In this document: positions 3,826-35,319 of the stretch, one piece after another
How the letters are laid out: the number at the start of each line of letters is the position of its first letter
Position numbering within the stretch: position 1 is the first letter of the stretch
Source: Sphaerisporangium rufum
Lineage (GTDB): Bacteria; Actinomycetota; Actinomycetes; Streptosporangiales; Streptosporangiaceae
Assembly: GCF_016863395.1 (NCBI RefSeq)
Contig: NZ_BOOU01000007.1
Coordinates: forward strand, 62,001 to 126,000
Direction: 5' to 3'
DNA: 64,000 nucleotides
Notes under the pieces: generated by a model
Database searches by the model: none
Told to the model about the DNA's origin: nothing
What the model saw: the letters and a program-made list of their open reading frames with translations, nothing else
Made by a program: the position numbers and the translations under genes

Positions 3826-4123
3826 GGCGCCTCGGCCTCCTCAGGGCGGGTGCACCGGGCTCCCGGTGTCCCTTCGTTGCTCCTTGCTGCCGACAATGCC
3901 TCACCCGGCCGCCGGGAAACCCGCCGTCATCGAAAAGTGTCCATGTCCGGCCGCCCGGCCGGCCGATCCTTCTTCTGGGCACCGCCCTACACCTGGACGA
4001 AACGCACCGGGGCCGCTGCGGGCCCCCGCGGACGGCTCCGCCCCGGCGCCCAAAGCGCGTACCGGTCCGGCGGAGGCGGGGAGAGCCCTGGGAGCGGGCG
4101 TGACGCGGAGCCTGGAACGGTGC
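3826..4123 (+). other. Non-coding region upstream of the lipoprotein
   Basis: I see no credible gene here. It should hold the promoter of the leftward lipoprotein gene. A near-perfect 7-bp inverted repeat (CACCGGG CT CCCGGTG, 3853-3868) lies in what would be the 5' leader, about 28 bases before the start codon. The rest is GC-rich sequence with chance open frames only. No clear -35/-10 pair could be assigned by eye. Confidence 0.4.
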
Positions 4124-30030: not shown

Positions 30031-30031
30031 C

Positions 30032-30060
30032 CCCGCCCGATCCCGCGCGCGGCGGGCGGG
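30032..30060 (+). terminator. Possible hairpin between FHA and ABC genes
   Basis: An 8-bp stem, CCCGCCCG with CGGGCGGG, has a 13-base loop and lies directly after the FHA stop. The modest stem means it may be only a weak or chance structure. Confidence 0.35.
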
Positions 30061-30077
30061 CGCCGTAGAGTCGAGCG

Positions 30078-30695
30078 GTGATCGTCTCGGCGCGTGGAAT
30101 GGACGTGGAACTGGCCGGCCGTACGGTGCTGCGCGGGGTGGACCTGGCCGCCGCCCCCGGAGAGATCGTCGCGGTGCTCGGCGAGAACGGCGTGGGCAAG
30201 TCGACCCTGCTGCGCTGCCTGGCCGGGCTGCAGCCGCCGGCGGCGGGCGAGCTCGGCGTGCTCGGCCGCCCACCGGCCGACGAGCCGGCGTTCTGGCGCG
30301 AGGTGGTGCTGGCCGCCGACGAGCCGGCCTGGTATCCGGGCCTGAGCGTGCGCGAGCACCTGGAGCTCATGCACGCGGTGCACGGCGCGGCCCGGCTGGA
30401 GGTCGGCGCGGCGCTCGACGCCTTCGAGCTGGCCGGACGCGGCGACGTGTCCCCCCTCGCGCTGTCCACCGGGCAGCGGCAGCGCCTGTGCCTGGCGATG
30501 GTCCTGCTGCGGCCGAGCCGGCTGCTGCTGCTGGACGAGCCGGAACGCGGGCTCGACACCGCCTTCCGGCGGCGGCTCGGGTCCTACCTGGCCGGGTACG
30601 CCGCGACCGGCGGCGCGGTGGTGATGGCGACGCACGACCCGGCCCTGGCCGACGCCGTCGCCACCCGCCGCGTGCTGCTGGAGACCGCCGCGTGA
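30078..30695 (+). CDS. ABC transporter ATP-binding protein
   Basis: This 205-residue ATPase subunit contains Walker A GENGVGKSTL, a signature written LSTGQRQRL (LSxGQ type), Walker B LLLLDEPERGLD and a switch His in ATHDPAL. It is short but complete. The next gene, a multi-helix membrane protein, begins inside its stop codon (GTGA), so the two form an ABC exporter-type pair. The cargo is unknown. The translation start is GTG at 30078. Confidence 0.9.
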   Translation: MIVSARGMDVELAGRTVLRGVDLAAAPGEIVAVLGENGVGKSTLLRCLAGLQPPAAGELGVLGRPPADEPAFWREVVLAADEPAWYPGLSVREHLELMHAVHGAARLEVGAALDAFELAGRGDVSPLALSTGQRQRLCLAMVLLRPSRLLLLDEPERGLDTAFRRRLGSYLAGYAATGGAVVMATHDPALADAVATRRVLLETAA

Positions 30696-32383
30696 CCGGG
30701 GTCCGCGCGGTCCGGGGCTTCATCCGCGAGCGCCGTCACCGGCCGGCGCGCTGGACGGATCGGTACACCGCCGGCTTCGCGCTCGCGATGGCGGCCCTGC
30801 TGGCGAGCCGGCCGATCGGCTCGGCGATCGCCTCGGTCGCGCACCCGATCGCCCCCGGACGGCTCGGCGCCGCGTTCGCCCTGGTGACGCTGGCCTTGGC
30901 CGGCCTCCTCGCGCTCGCCCGCGCCGCCGGCCCGATCGTACTCCCGGCCGCGGAGGCCGCCTGGCTCGTGCTGTCGCCGCTGCCGCGCCGCGGGGTGCTG
31001 GCCCGCTCCGCCGTGGAACTGGCGGTGGCCGCGCTGCTGGGCGGGGCGGTCCTCGGCGTGGCCGCGCTCGCGCTGGTGGGCGCAGCCGACCAGGTGGGCG
31101 TGCGGCTGATCGTGGCGGTGGTGCTCGGCATGTCCGCCACGGCCGGCGGCATGGCGTCCGCCGTGCTCGGCCAGGCGTCCGAGCAGTGGCAGTCCGGGAC
31201 CCGGGCGGCGATCACCGTGCTCACCGTGGCGGCCGTCCTGATGGCGGTCCTGGGCGCCGGGCCCGGCCGCGGCCTGCTCGCCGCGGTCGCCGCCGCGCCG
31301 GCCGCGCTCGGCGCGGCGCTCGCCGGCCTGACCGCCGCGGCGGCCGCCCTGGTGGGCCGGCGGGCGTGGGCCGCGCTGGACCGGATGCCCGCCTCGAAGG
31401 TCCTGGCCGCCTCCACCCGGGCCGGCCACCTGGCGGCGGCGACCACCGTCATGGACCCCGGCGCGTTGACCTGGGCCGCCGAGGACAACCGGTGGCGCGG
31501 CCGCATCCTGCGCTCCCGCCGCTGGCCCGCCAGACTGCGTGCCGCCGGCGCGACCGCGCTCGCCCCGGGACCACTCGCCCTCGCCCCGCAGCACGCCGCC
31601 GGCGCACCCGCTCCGGCGCGGCCGGCCGGCCGGTCCGCCTCCCTCGGCGCCCGCCGTCCGGCTCCGGACCCGCGGGCCGGGCGGGGAACGGCGGCACCCC
31701 CCTGGCCGGCCGCGATGGCGGTGGCCTGGCCGGACTGGCGGCTGCTGTCCCGCCGCCCGTGGCGGGCGGCGGGCCTGCTCGCCAGCACGGTGCTGCCCGC
31801 CGCGGTCGGGCAGGCGAGCGGGACCCCGTCCACGCTCACGCTGGTCACGCTGGCCATCGGCGCGCTCTCCGCCGCCGCGACCTGCACCTCCGGCGCACGG
31901 CGGGACGGCGACAATCCGGCGCTGGCCCGCCTGCTCGGCGTCGACCCGCGCGCGGTGCTGGCCGCCCGGGCGGTGCTGCCCGCGCTACTCGGCGCCGGGT
32001 GGCTCGTCCTCGCATTGGCCGGGCTCGCCGCCGCCGGCCCGCTGCCCGGCGGCCCGTGGTGGCTCTTCGGACCGGCCGCCGCACCGGCCCTGGCCGCGGG
32101 CGCGCTGCGGATGGCCCGCCGGGCGCCGATCGACCACTCGATGCCGGTGATCGACACCCCGGGCGGTGCCGTGCCCACCGGTCCGCTGATCTGGGCGGCG
32201 ACCGGCCCCGACCTGGCCGCGGCCGGCTGCGCGCCGCTGCTGTGGGCCCTGTTCAGCGGTTCACCGCTGTCACCCGCGCTGGTGGCCGGGCAGGCGCTGC
32301 TCGCCCTCGGCGTGCTGGCCGCCTACCTGCGGCGCGGCGCGGCGCGGCCGCCCGCGGACCGGCCGGCCGCGGGCGCCGCCTGA
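30692..32383 (+). CDS. Multi-pass membrane protein, probable permease partner of the ABC ATPase
   Basis: This 563-residue, Ala/Leu/Gly-rich protein has many hydrophobic helices (roughly ten to twelve) and a basic, Pro/Ala-rich cytosolic loop around residues 265-345. I recognise no specific motif. Its start overlaps the ATPase stop codon (GTGA), and length and layout fit actinobacterial permeases of the DUF6297-like kind. The pairing is inferred from gene order. Charged residues are scarce in the helices. No conserved loop (such as EAA) could be picked out by eye. Confidence 0.7.
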   Translation: MTGVRAVRGFIRERRHRPARWTDRYTAGFALAMAALLASRPIGSAIASVAHPIAPGRLGAAFALVTLALAGLLALARAAGPIVLPAAEAAWLVLSPLPRRGVLARSAVELAVAALLGGAVLGVAALALVGAADQVGVRLIVAVVLGMSATAGGMASAVLGQASEQWQSGTRAAITVLTVAAVLMAVLGAGPGRGLLAAVAAAPAALGAALAGLTAAAAALVGRRAWAALDRMPASKVLAASTRAGHLAAATTVMDPGALTWAAEDNRWRGRILRSRRWPARLRAAGATALAPGPLALAPQHAAGAPAPARPAGRSASLGARRPAPDPRAGRGTAAPPWPAAMAVAWPDWRLLSRRPWRAAGLLASTVLPAAVGQASGTPSTLTLVTLAIGALSAAATCTSGARRDGDNPALARLLGVDPRAVLAARAVLPALLGAGWLVLALAGLAAAGPLPGGPWWLFGPAAAPALAAGALRMARRAPIDHSMPVIDTPGGAVPTGPLIWAATGPDLAAAGCAPLLWALFSGSPLSPALVAGQALLALGVLAAYLRRGAARPPADRPAAGAA

Positions 32384-32524
32384 CGAAGCGCGCACCGCAC
32401 CGCCCGATCCGCGCACGGTGAGCGGGCGACTCCGTTTCGTCATTGACGGAACGGCTGCGATGGGCGGATGCTCGCAGCGAGGCCGGCGGGGGCGGCGCAC
32501 CGTGAGCGAGAACGAGGTGGACGT

Positions 32525-33268
32525 ATGACCGACCAGGCCGGCGGCGGCGAGATCCGCGAGCCGCTGATATTACGCGACGACGCCGTCACCGGCGGCGTGC
32601 CCGCCCTGTTCGCCGCGATGCGCGCCGACGACGCGCTGCGGCGGCGGTTCGCCGAGGACCCGGCCGGCGTGCTGGCAAAGGTCACCGGGAACGTCGGCCT
32701 GCCGCCACAACGCCTGTCGTCGACCAACCGCCTGGTGTTCTCGCTGCTCGGCAACGCCGAGCTGGTCGACTGGCTGCGCTCCTACGCCGAGGAGCGACGC
32801 GGCGAGCCGATCGAGCGGACCCGGTTCTCCCGCGACTTCGCCGAAGCGGTGCTGGAACACGGGCACGGCAGCCCGGAACTCGACATCATCCGGAACGCGA
32901 TCCGCGACGACGCCGGAATCCGCATCGCGCCGGACGCGTCTCCCTTCATTCACCACAGCGACTTCCTGCTGCCCGGCATCGCGGTCACCACCGATCACAA
33001 GGTGCAACAGCACCAGACCCAGGACCAGGTGCAGGACGCCCAGACCCGGCACGACCACTCCTCCACCCAGAGCTTCACTCCGCAGACCCACTTCACCACC
33101 CCGCACAGCGGCGTGGACCCGGAGGAAGACCTGACGATCTCCCCGGAGTGGCTGCGCATCACCGTCGACGCGCTGGTGAACCAGGCCGGCCTGCTGCGCC
33201 GCAGCAGGCTGTTGGACGTGGACGCGCCGCTGGACCTGCACCTGGACTCCCCGCTGGACCTCGGATGA
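32525..33268 (+). CDS. Putative substrate/precursor protein coupled to a radical SAM enzyme
   Basis: I do not recognise this 247-residue protein. It has no signal peptide or membrane helix. The N-terminal third (about 24-55) has a helical, leader-like look (PALFAAMRADDALRRRFAED), somewhat like the short leader domains of ribosomal peptide precursors. A hydrophobic motif LVFSLLGNAELVDWLRS follows (70-86). Residues about 157-195 are a His/Gln/Thr/Asp-rich tract. The tail ends with acidic leucine repeats (DAPLDLHLDSPLDLG). The ATG at 32525 has GAGGTGG ahead. It overlaps the radical SAM gene by ATGA, so the two are made together. A substrate or partner role is inferred. Confidence 0.7.
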   Translation: MTDQAGGGEIREPLILRDDAVTGGVPALFAAMRADDALRRRFAEDPAGVLAKVTGNVGLPPQRLSSTNRLVFSLLGNAELVDWLRSYAEERRGEPIERTRFSRDFAEAVLEHGHGSPELDIIRNAIRDDAGIRIAPDASPFIHHSDFLLPGIAVTTDHKVQQHQTQDQVQDAQTRHDHSSTQSFTPQTHFTTPHSGVDPEEDLTISPEWLRITVDALVNQAGLLRRSRLLDVDAPLDLHLDSPLDLG

Positions 33269-34344
33269 GCGCGCCGGACCCGGGCCGGGGCGTCTTCGCC
33301 GGCCCGCGCACTCTGTCGATCATGCCGACCTTCGCCTGCCCGGCCGCGTGCGCCGAGTGCGGCACGCTGTCCAGCCCGCACGCCGCGGGCCGGCTGGACC
33401 TCGCCCAGATCGTCGCCGCGATCGACGAGGCCCGCGAGCTGGGCTTCTACAACGTCGTCTTCACCGGCGGTGAGGCGACGCTGCGCTGGCGCGACCTGCT
33501 CGCCGGCATCACGCACGCGCGCGACCGGGGGTTCCCGGTGCGGCTGGTGACCAACGCGCACTGGGCCCGGAGCCTGGAACGGGCCCGTGCCCGGGTGGCC
33601 GCGCTGGCCGGCGCCGGGCTCACCGAGATCAACTACAGCACCGGCGACGAGCACGTCCGCTTCGTCCCGGTTGACCGGGTGGCCTACGCGATGGTCGCCG
33701 CGGCCGAGCGCGATCTGCCCGTGCACGTGATGGTGGAGATGAAGCTCGGCAACGAGATGACCCGCGACCGGCTGCTGGCCCACCCGGCGCTGGACCTGCT
33801 GGACGCCGGGCGGCGGGCGGCGATCTCGGTGAAGTCCAGCCCGTGGATGCCGCTCAGCCCCGACCGGTTCCACCGCTACGAGCCCGGCACGGCCGCCGAC
33901 CGCGGCAACCTGGGCTCGCGGACCGGGTGCCCCAGCGTGCTGCAGACCTACACCGTGCAGGGCGACGGCCGGATCGGCGCCTGCTGCGGCATCGGGTTGC
34001 GCGCGATCGGCGAGTTGAACGTCGGGCGCGCCGAGGGTGCCGAGCCGCTGCGCCGGGCCGTCCAGGAGGCCGAGCAGGACTTCCTCAAGCTGTGGATCCA
34101 CTACGAGGGCCCGGAACGGGTGATCGCCTGGGCGGCGTCGCACGATCCGTCCATCGAGTGGGAGGGCCGGTACGGCCACCACTGCCAGGCCTGCCGCCGC
34201 CTGTATCAGGACGACACCATCCGGGCGGTCGTCCGCCGGCACTGGAAGGAGGTGGTCGCCCGGGTGCTGCAGGCCGCCTGGTTCGACGAGGTGGACGGCC
34301 CCCGGCGGCTGCGCGAGATCGCCGCCCCGGCGCCGGCCGGCTGA
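33265..34344 (+). CDS. Radical SAM enzyme with extra C-terminal cysteines
   Basis: This 359-residue protein has the classic radical SAM motif CPAACAEC (Cys25, 29, 32) binding a 4Fe-4S cluster, and TGGEATL (67-73), the SAM-binding loop. Additional cysteines lie at 222, 240, 241, 307 and 310 (with HHCQAC), suggesting an auxiliary cluster as in SPASM-type peptide-modifying enzymes. It starts within the stop codon of the upstream 247-residue gene, which is probably its substrate or partner. Such enzymes make carbon-carbon or thioether crosslinks in peptides. The actual reaction is unknown. A perfect 9-bp hairpin follows about 70 bases downstream. Confidence 0.85.
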   Translation: MSAPDPGRGVFAGPRTLSIMPTFACPAACAECGTLSSPHAAGRLDLAQIVAAIDEARELGFYNVVFTGGEATLRWRDLLAGITHARDRGFPVRLVTNAHWARSLERARARVAALAGAGLTEINYSTGDEHVRFVPVDRVAYAMVAAAERDLPVHVMVEMKLGNEMTRDRLLAHPALDLLDAGRRAAISVKSSPWMPLSPDRFHRYEPGTAADRGNLGSRTGCPSVLQTYTVQGDGRIGACCGIGLRAIGELNVGRAEGAEPLRRAVQEAEQDFLKLWIHYEGPERVIAWAASHDPSIEWEGRYGHHCQACRRLYQDDTIRAVVRRHWKEVVARVLQAAWFDEVDGPRRLREIAAPAPAG

Positions 34345-34413
34345 GCCCCGGACGCACCCGCTCGCCCGCGTCCCGGCGTACCCGGCCGTCGCCCGCGTCT
34401 CGGCGGCCGGCCC

Positions 34414-34434
34414 GCCGGGACGCGACGTCCCGGC
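34414..34434 (+). terminator. Hairpin terminator after the radical SAM gene
   Basis: A perfect 9-bp stem GCCGGGACG / CGTCCCGGC with a 3-base loop CGA lies 70 bases downstream of the radical SAM stop codon and closes the two-gene unit. Confidence 0.6.
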
Positions 34435-34515
34435 GCCGGAAGCGGGCGGCGAACGGGGTGGCCGGACCGGGAGAATTCTCCTGGCAAGCGTGGGCGTGAT
34501 TGCTACGGTGAAGGC

Positions 34516-35143: not shown

Positions 35144-35199
35144 GACCGCAGGCGTGCCGCACGGTGGGCGTGGACGCCGGGACGCGCCCGCCGCACGAT

Positions 35200-35266
35200 T
35201 GCCGTCGACCGACCACCTGGTGTTCTCGCTGCTCGGCAACGCCGACCTGGTCGACCGGCTGCGCTC
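35200..35266 (+). pseudogene. Degenerate fragment of the 247-residue putative substrate gene
   Basis: This 67-base stretch matches bases 32715-32781 at 62 of 67 positions by my own alignment. In the corresponding frame it encodes RLPSTDHLVFSLLGNADLVD, versus RLSSTNRLVFSLLGNAELVD in the complete gene. All five differences change an amino acid. No similarity continues downstream, and no start or stop consistent with a working gene is apparent. It is probably a remnant of a second copy. Confidence 0.7.
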
Positions 35267-35319
35267 GGGCGGCGACCCCCTCGGCGCGGCGGGGCGCTGG
35301 ATCCGCGGGGCGGAAAGGG

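Follow-up and report, generated by a model that had tools for sequence, protein, structure and literature searches.

A long precursor-like gene and an EpeE-like radical SAM gene form a candidate two-gene RiPP cassette in Sphaerisporangium rufum

The locus described here lies in a 64,000 nt stretch of the Sphaerisporangium rufum genome (contig NZ_BOOU01000007.1, positions 62,001 to 126,000), hereafter the window, the numbering of which is used throughout. Gene A (32525..33268, forward strand) encodes a 247 aa putative precursor of a ribosomally synthesised and post-translationally modified peptide (RiPP), apparently composed of a leader-like domain, a probably disordered middle and a C-terminal helix. 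It is followed on the same strand by gene B (33265..34344), encoding a 359 aa radical S-adenosylmethionine (SAM) enzyme that resembles EpeE, or YydG. The two genes overlap through a shared ATGA, and their coordinates confirm those of the initial annotation of the window, which had proposed that the first gene may encode a large precursor or partner modified in its C-terminal part. A longer open reading frame (ORF) opens at 32468; however, the protein from Planobispora aligns from residue 1 of the version starting at the ATG at 32525, which was taken as the start of gene A. Both genes look to be coding, with ratios of nonsynonymous to synonymous substitution rates (dN/dS) relative to Planobispora of 0.49 for A and 0.30 for B.

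The B protein matches PF04055 (E = 1.3e-8) and, far below the curated cut-off, TIGR04078 (E = 1.4e-12), and the top match of its predicted model among PDB folds is EpeE, which scores well above other radical SAM folds. The CxxxCxxC radical SAM cluster motif (CPAACAEC; C25, C29 and C32) is encoded at 33337..33360 on the forward strand, and there are exactly five further cysteines (C222, C240, C241, C307 and C310), as the initial annotation had counted. C240 and C241 form a Cys-Cys pair (33982..33987, forward strand), the second member of which aligns with Cys223 of EpeE, reported as the hydrogen donor of that enzyme (PMC5682303). The corresponding alignment column contains cysteine in all 21 YydG-like rows, and proline in the single SPASM outgroup row. 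The suggestion that B is a SPASM-type maturase was abandoned, as no SPASM match to B was found in Pfam at E <= 1.

The Pfam search that had been proposed for both proteins gave no above-cut-off match for A. Its sole NCBIfam match at E <= 1 was to TIGR04509, a model of NHLP-related RiPP peptides which fell short of its cut-off at E = 0.006; profile searching of the PDB returned nothing under E = 0.49. A and its relatives align over a helical domain at the N terminus and a helix at the C terminus, and their middles vary in length and make-up. The leader-like domain of A, which the A1 alignment and profile searches show to be common to these relatives, covers approximately residues 12-130 (32558..32914, forward strand); the C-terminal helix, placed by the alignment and by a low-confidence model, lies at about residues 205-226 (33137..33202, forward strand). 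The same model predicts helices between residues 19 and 127, with block means of 43-79 in the predicted local distance difference test (pLDDT) from residue 21, and at residues 207-226, with pLDDT below 50 at residues 131-202.

The intervening tract was correctly recognised in the initial annotation as rich in His, Gln and Thr: residues 131-205 include ten T, nine Q, eight D and eight H, and cysteine is absent from the whole of A. Within the tract, residues 140-174 (32942..33046, forward strand), including QHQTQDQVQ from residue 162, constitute a conserved middle block and the candidate core. This 35-residue block is 86% identical to Planobispora, the best stretch of the protein, against a median of 51% per stretch (shuffle p = 0.00055). 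The repetitive acidic, leucine-containing tail noted previously is also present, with a 24 nt direct repeat (83%), but is not kept in Planobispora, the protein of which has another end. Hence the part of A most likely to be modified is the middle, at about residues 140-174, rather than the acidic C-terminal tail originally put forward, whilst A as a whole is still best read as a large substrate or precursor.

A search with a B profile covered 341 genomes of the Streptosporangiaceae, the family to which the window belongs. Eleven had a match at E <= 1e-20, comprising eight orthologues (E <= 1e-129) and three genes of other radical SAM types (in G030, G559 and G073; E of 9e-22 to 7e-28), which were left out of the orthologue count. 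An A-type gene is found directly upstream of all eight orthologues, with an overlap of 4 or 14 nt or a gap of 4 nt; this co-conservation, the lack of which the initial annotation had named beforehand as refuting its reading, speaks against A and B being chance neighbours. Two tandem A genes precede B in G187, and in G103 and G095 the A genes are short (127-129 aa): the genome-wide search for A recovered neither, and against the A profile they reach no better than E = 1e-4 and 4e-5, within a local set that included 857 background ORFs. Comparison of all ORFs of at least 30 aa across the eight A-B loci (12-17 kb each) revealed none outside the A-B span common to more than two of them, the close pairs G016/G003 and G103/G095 being left out of the list. 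In a class sample, B was detected at E <= 1e-30 in four of 394 genomes, all from the Streptosporangiaceae; among 98 genomes sampled from the phylum, that of the window alone had it, apart from one distant non-member. A broad B profile match in G724 was dropped, lacking the Cys-Cys pair; a match in G007 falls within a large unrelated protein, and that in G614, a fragment with stops, was not taken in. There was no A match in plasmids, and no B match in phages.

The leader domain is also encoded beside other kinds of enzyme. At L015, L016, L019, L020, L059 and L060, A-type proteins directly precede a putative 2-oxoglutarate (2OG) oxygenase of about 420 aa, in four genomes of the family (G136, G111, G003 and G141) and two outside it (G236 and G397), and several of these proteins have middles formed of (TG)n or repeated SGTHxS. 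The name of this enzyme is kept as putative: it depends on an HxD...H arrangement which we take to be that of 2OG oxygenases, one of three members has a Pfam match to 2OG-FeII_Oxy_3 (E = 0.066), and profile searching of the PDB yielded just an antigen that looks unrelated (E = 0.0004). In G009 (L064 3978-6974), a 120 aa protein that resembles a precursor and carries the leader motif of A is followed by a LanL/LanKC-like synthetase (NF038150, E = 2.6e-113, below the cut-off), and the A1 profile also picks up a lanthipeptide-type precursor. The G009 arrangement lends independent, if thin, support to the domain being a RiPP leader, and its position beside two further kinds of enzyme means that it may be a reusable recognition domain. 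A separate observation concerns G111 (L016 8480-9919), where a radical SAM/SPASM gene of the TIGR03913 type (GDL motif peptide-associated) lies soon after the A/2OG pair; it is not there in the close relative G136 (L015).

We favour, with moderate confidence, the interpretation that A and B constitute a RiPP cassette of two genes, in which B epimerises residues in the middle of the long precursor A. B would recognise A, probably via the helical N-terminal leader domain, and the 5'-deoxyadenosyl radical of the enzyme would abstract the alpha-carbon hydrogen of chosen residues in the middle. A hydrogen from Cys241 would then be returned on the opposite face, yielding D residues in the way that EpeE generates them in the epipeptide. 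The leader, and perhaps also the C-terminal helix, would later be removed by some protease, such that the product would be a D-residue-containing peptide from about residues 138-200.

A number of observations weigh against this interpretation. B is EpeE-like in predicted fold and residues, yet is not a member of TIGR04078, since it scores 47.8 bits against a curated cut-off of 300. The predicted model of A is poor overall (pLDDT 49), no modified product is known, and no protease, immunity gene or dedicated exporter could be shown for the window. Given the scarcity of B matches in the class and phylum samples, the cassette is rare, and the nine A proteins that are paired with B orthologues in the family all fail to reach p <= 0.01 in the main alternation test considered below. 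Furthermore, the middle of A shows no less conservation than the leader between G016 and G003 (96% and 93% identity, respectively). The equivalent values are 51% and 52% between the window and Planobispora, and 56% and 88% between G103 and G095, the B proteins of which are 95% identical. Hence fast change of the core is not general, and a hypervariable core was rejected as a common trait, the middles in the first two pairs being no faster than the leader.

It is conceivable, if unlikely, that B instead modifies A through another radical reaction, such as formation of a carbon-carbon or carbon-oxygen cross-link, or cleavage. The StsB (E = 2.7e-10) and PqqE (E = 1.3e-9) models also match B, in its N-terminal half, and D210 of EpeE, the acid mutated in that enzyme, has no clear counterpart: its position is occupied by L226 in B and by a gap in the YydG rows, with a two-residue indel in the alignment there. 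Both points tell against epimerisation as well as for this alternative. However, the EpeE fold lies well above the others for B, the hydrogen donor column sets B apart from the single SPASM outgroup row, and a thioether within A alone is excluded by its lack of cysteine.

It seems quite unlikely that A is a full-length structural or cell-surface protein which undergoes modification within its middle and never has a leader cleaved off. Such a protein would have what we take to be the layout of IniB, a small N-terminal domain followed by a low-complexity region, and a weak IniB_NTERM similarity is indeed detectable in two of seven A1 members (best E = 0.025) and in a lanthipeptide-like relative (E = 0.0015). 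Tat-like (twin-arginine translocation) N termini were also recognised by reading in the G187 and Thermus proteins, and the relatives beside the putative 2OG oxygenase have long (TG)n regions. Against this stand the detection of a lanthipeptide-type precursor by the A1 profile, and the SdpI-like genes, ATP-binding cassette (ABC) transporters and Rgg regulator that adjoin distant relatives. That A serves B as an adaptor or chaperone, with the true substrate encoded elsewhere, is highly improbable: A is far longer than most precursors, but its middle is unalignable between orthologous loci while the leader and C-terminal helix align, which fits a substrate better, and no further ORF of at least 30 aa beyond the A-B span occurs at more than two of the eight loci.

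Searching plasmids with B identified radical SAM genes on eight plasmid records, and using the Thermus enzyme as the query added one from Klebsiella. At seven of these nine distant loci, an ORF of 168-301 aa immediately precedes the radical SAM gene on the same strand (Streptomyces canus, Thermus, Lactococcus, Enterococcus, Halocatena, Collinsella and Klebsiella). The ORF in this position in Eleftheria and Rhizobium (129 and 126 aa, respectively) looks unlike A; a downstream candidate in Eleftheria, picked by eye, has E = 0.79 to the A profile. Only the upstream proteins of S. canus (E = 1.4e-15) and Thermus (E = 2.9e-7) match this profile, and for those of Lactococcus, Enterococcus, Halocatena, Collinsella and Klebsiella, which do not, homology with A is not shown.

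Three of these loci (L104 2599-6074, L110 3240-6176 and L111 2865-6084), from Thermus, Collinsella and Klebsiella, respectively, each combine genes for a long alternating-Asn protein, an EpeE-like radical SAM enzyme and a methyltransferase. Asn occupies every second residue over long stretches of the middle in all three (lag-2 test; p < 0.0005 in Thermus and Klebsiella, p = 0.0015 in Collinsella). The Thermus methyltransferase is HemK-like, although below cut-offs, a group which includes glutamine amide methyltransferases; a related gene follows the Rhizobium radical SAM gene, where no Asn-rich ORF was found. SdpI-family genes are present at the Thermus and Klebsiella loci (L104 and L111), suggesting that the product of the cassette may be an antibacterial peptide. 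The Enterococcus locus contains an Rgg regulator and an ABC gene; an ABC gene also occurs at the Lactococcus locus, together with a C1 peptidase. In Collinsella, the radical SAM gene probably begins upstream of its annotated start (L110 4061), as the annotated protein leaves the CxxxCxxC columns blank and the DNA match begins at 4001.

Alternation was assessed in 25 proteins, eight of which passed the main test at p <= 0.01 (G136, G111, G003 C27, G141, Thermus, Halocatena, Collinsella and Klebsiella), as did one of 44 control proteins. For A of the window, the lag-2 test gave p = 0.45 over the whole middle, and the best 24-position stretch p = 0.46 (0.77 in Planobispora). The middle does contain Q-x-Q-x-Q-x-Q-x-Q, a run of five Q, four of which are kept in Planobispora, and in a run-length test, chosen once the sequences had been inspected, the window had p = 0.008, Planobispora p = 0.067 and Collinsella p = 0.089. 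At p <= 0.01 this post hoc test was passed by six of the 25, one of them (G187b) in a signal-like region and not the middle, and by none of 45 controls, four of which passed at p <= 0.05. As both of the broader tests are non-significant, an alternating pattern is not claimed for A of the window.

A wider proposal, which we regard as possible but doubtful, is that B and its relatives represent an unrecognised class of long-precursor RiPPs, spread across actinomycetes, Thermus, lactic acid bacteria, proteobacteria and a haloarchaeon. The middles of these precursors would be converted into alternating L/D (or L/Gly) beta-helical peptides via an EpeE-type epimerase, an outcome reached separately from that of the PoyD proteusins. 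The Thermus, Klebsiella and Collinsella products would be amide-N-methylated Asn ladders, and those of the window and Planobispora an unmethylated Gln ladder.

Upstream of A on the same strand are an FHA-domain gene and genes for an ABC ATPase and a DUF6297 protein, the last two of which (30078..32383, forward strand) might encode an exporter, or perhaps be unrelated. Downstream of B are a Uma2 gene and then folD, named by reading; between these lies an 81 nt relic of a second A-type gene (35195..35275, forward strand), 86% identical to 32710-32790 and recovered again by a whole-genome search (E = 9.4e-5), which the initial annotation had not mentioned. DUF6297 was found by tblastn at none of the seven other A-B loci; it occurs in three of ten genomes tested, in Planobispora on a different contig from A-B. 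The ABC ATPase is the one ORF outside the A-B span with a match at another of the loci, in Planobispora, on the opposite strand and 33% identical. In two genomes of the same genus, G175 and G064, the FHA and Uma2 genes adjoin, without the ABC ATPase, DUF6297, A or B; hence the stretch at about 30031-34515 was either inserted in the window or lost from both of those genomes, and these four genes look like one inserted stretch. Six further fetched genomes were uninformative, the stretch there having folD and not FHA or Uma2. No peptidase adjoins B, and neither a methyltransferase nor an SdpI gene lies beside A-B in the window.

Searches of open-access papers gave no title or abstract start on the A-B pair. 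Similar gene pairs are present in a few distant bacteria and an archaeon. Together with the pair described here, they place precursor-like proteins of 127-301 aa beside an EpeE-type enzyme in several phyla, compared with 51 aa for a YydF, and allow a test of whether alternating peptides resembling the polytheonamides evolved repeatedly, through different epimerases; expression of a cassette of only two genes is also simple.

Of the known systems, the Bacillus subtilis epipeptide, made by EpeE (YydG) from EpeX (YydF), provides the closest enzyme, although B is only 13% identical to EpeE over the structural alignment. YydF of Macrococcoides, at 51 aa, contrasts with the 247 aa of A and its domain-like N terminus, and the YydH-type peptidase and YydIJ ABC genes of the epipeptide system have no equivalent in an adjoining peptidase or conserved ABC pair: the ABC and DUF6297 genes of the window are not conserved beside the other seven pairs. 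A probable epipeptide operon was separately noted elsewhere in the family (L061 3318-6464), where a YydG-like gene (TIGR04078, 283 bits against 300) is followed by membrane protease-like and ABC genes, identified by reading. A sactipeptide was discounted, as the substrate A has no cysteine. With the NHLP-related peptides of TIGR04509, A shares the short motif D..LR..F..DP..VL at residues 27-53 (E = 0.001 for the domain alone); however, it scores 16.6 bits against a cut-off of 34, and is much longer than the 87-position model.

The proteusins (polytheonamide and aeronamide) are made with a PoyD-type epimerase, an NHLP leader and a PoyE/AerE Asn N-methyltransferase. Their leaders are described as long and partly folded (PMC10858898), and the methylated asparagines along the beta-helix of polytheonamides as stabilising it (PMC11285071). 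Unlike these, A has a leader falling under every NHLP-type model cut-off, its enzyme is EpeE-like, and the window has neither an adjoining methyltransferase nor alternating Asn. The relatives in Thermus, Klebsiella and Collinsella are proteusin-like in having alternating Asn middles and a methyltransferase gene, a likeness to polytheonamides of pattern and not of shown descent. A itself resembles the proteusin precursors in having a long leader followed by a less ordered part, alongside an epimerase-like B.
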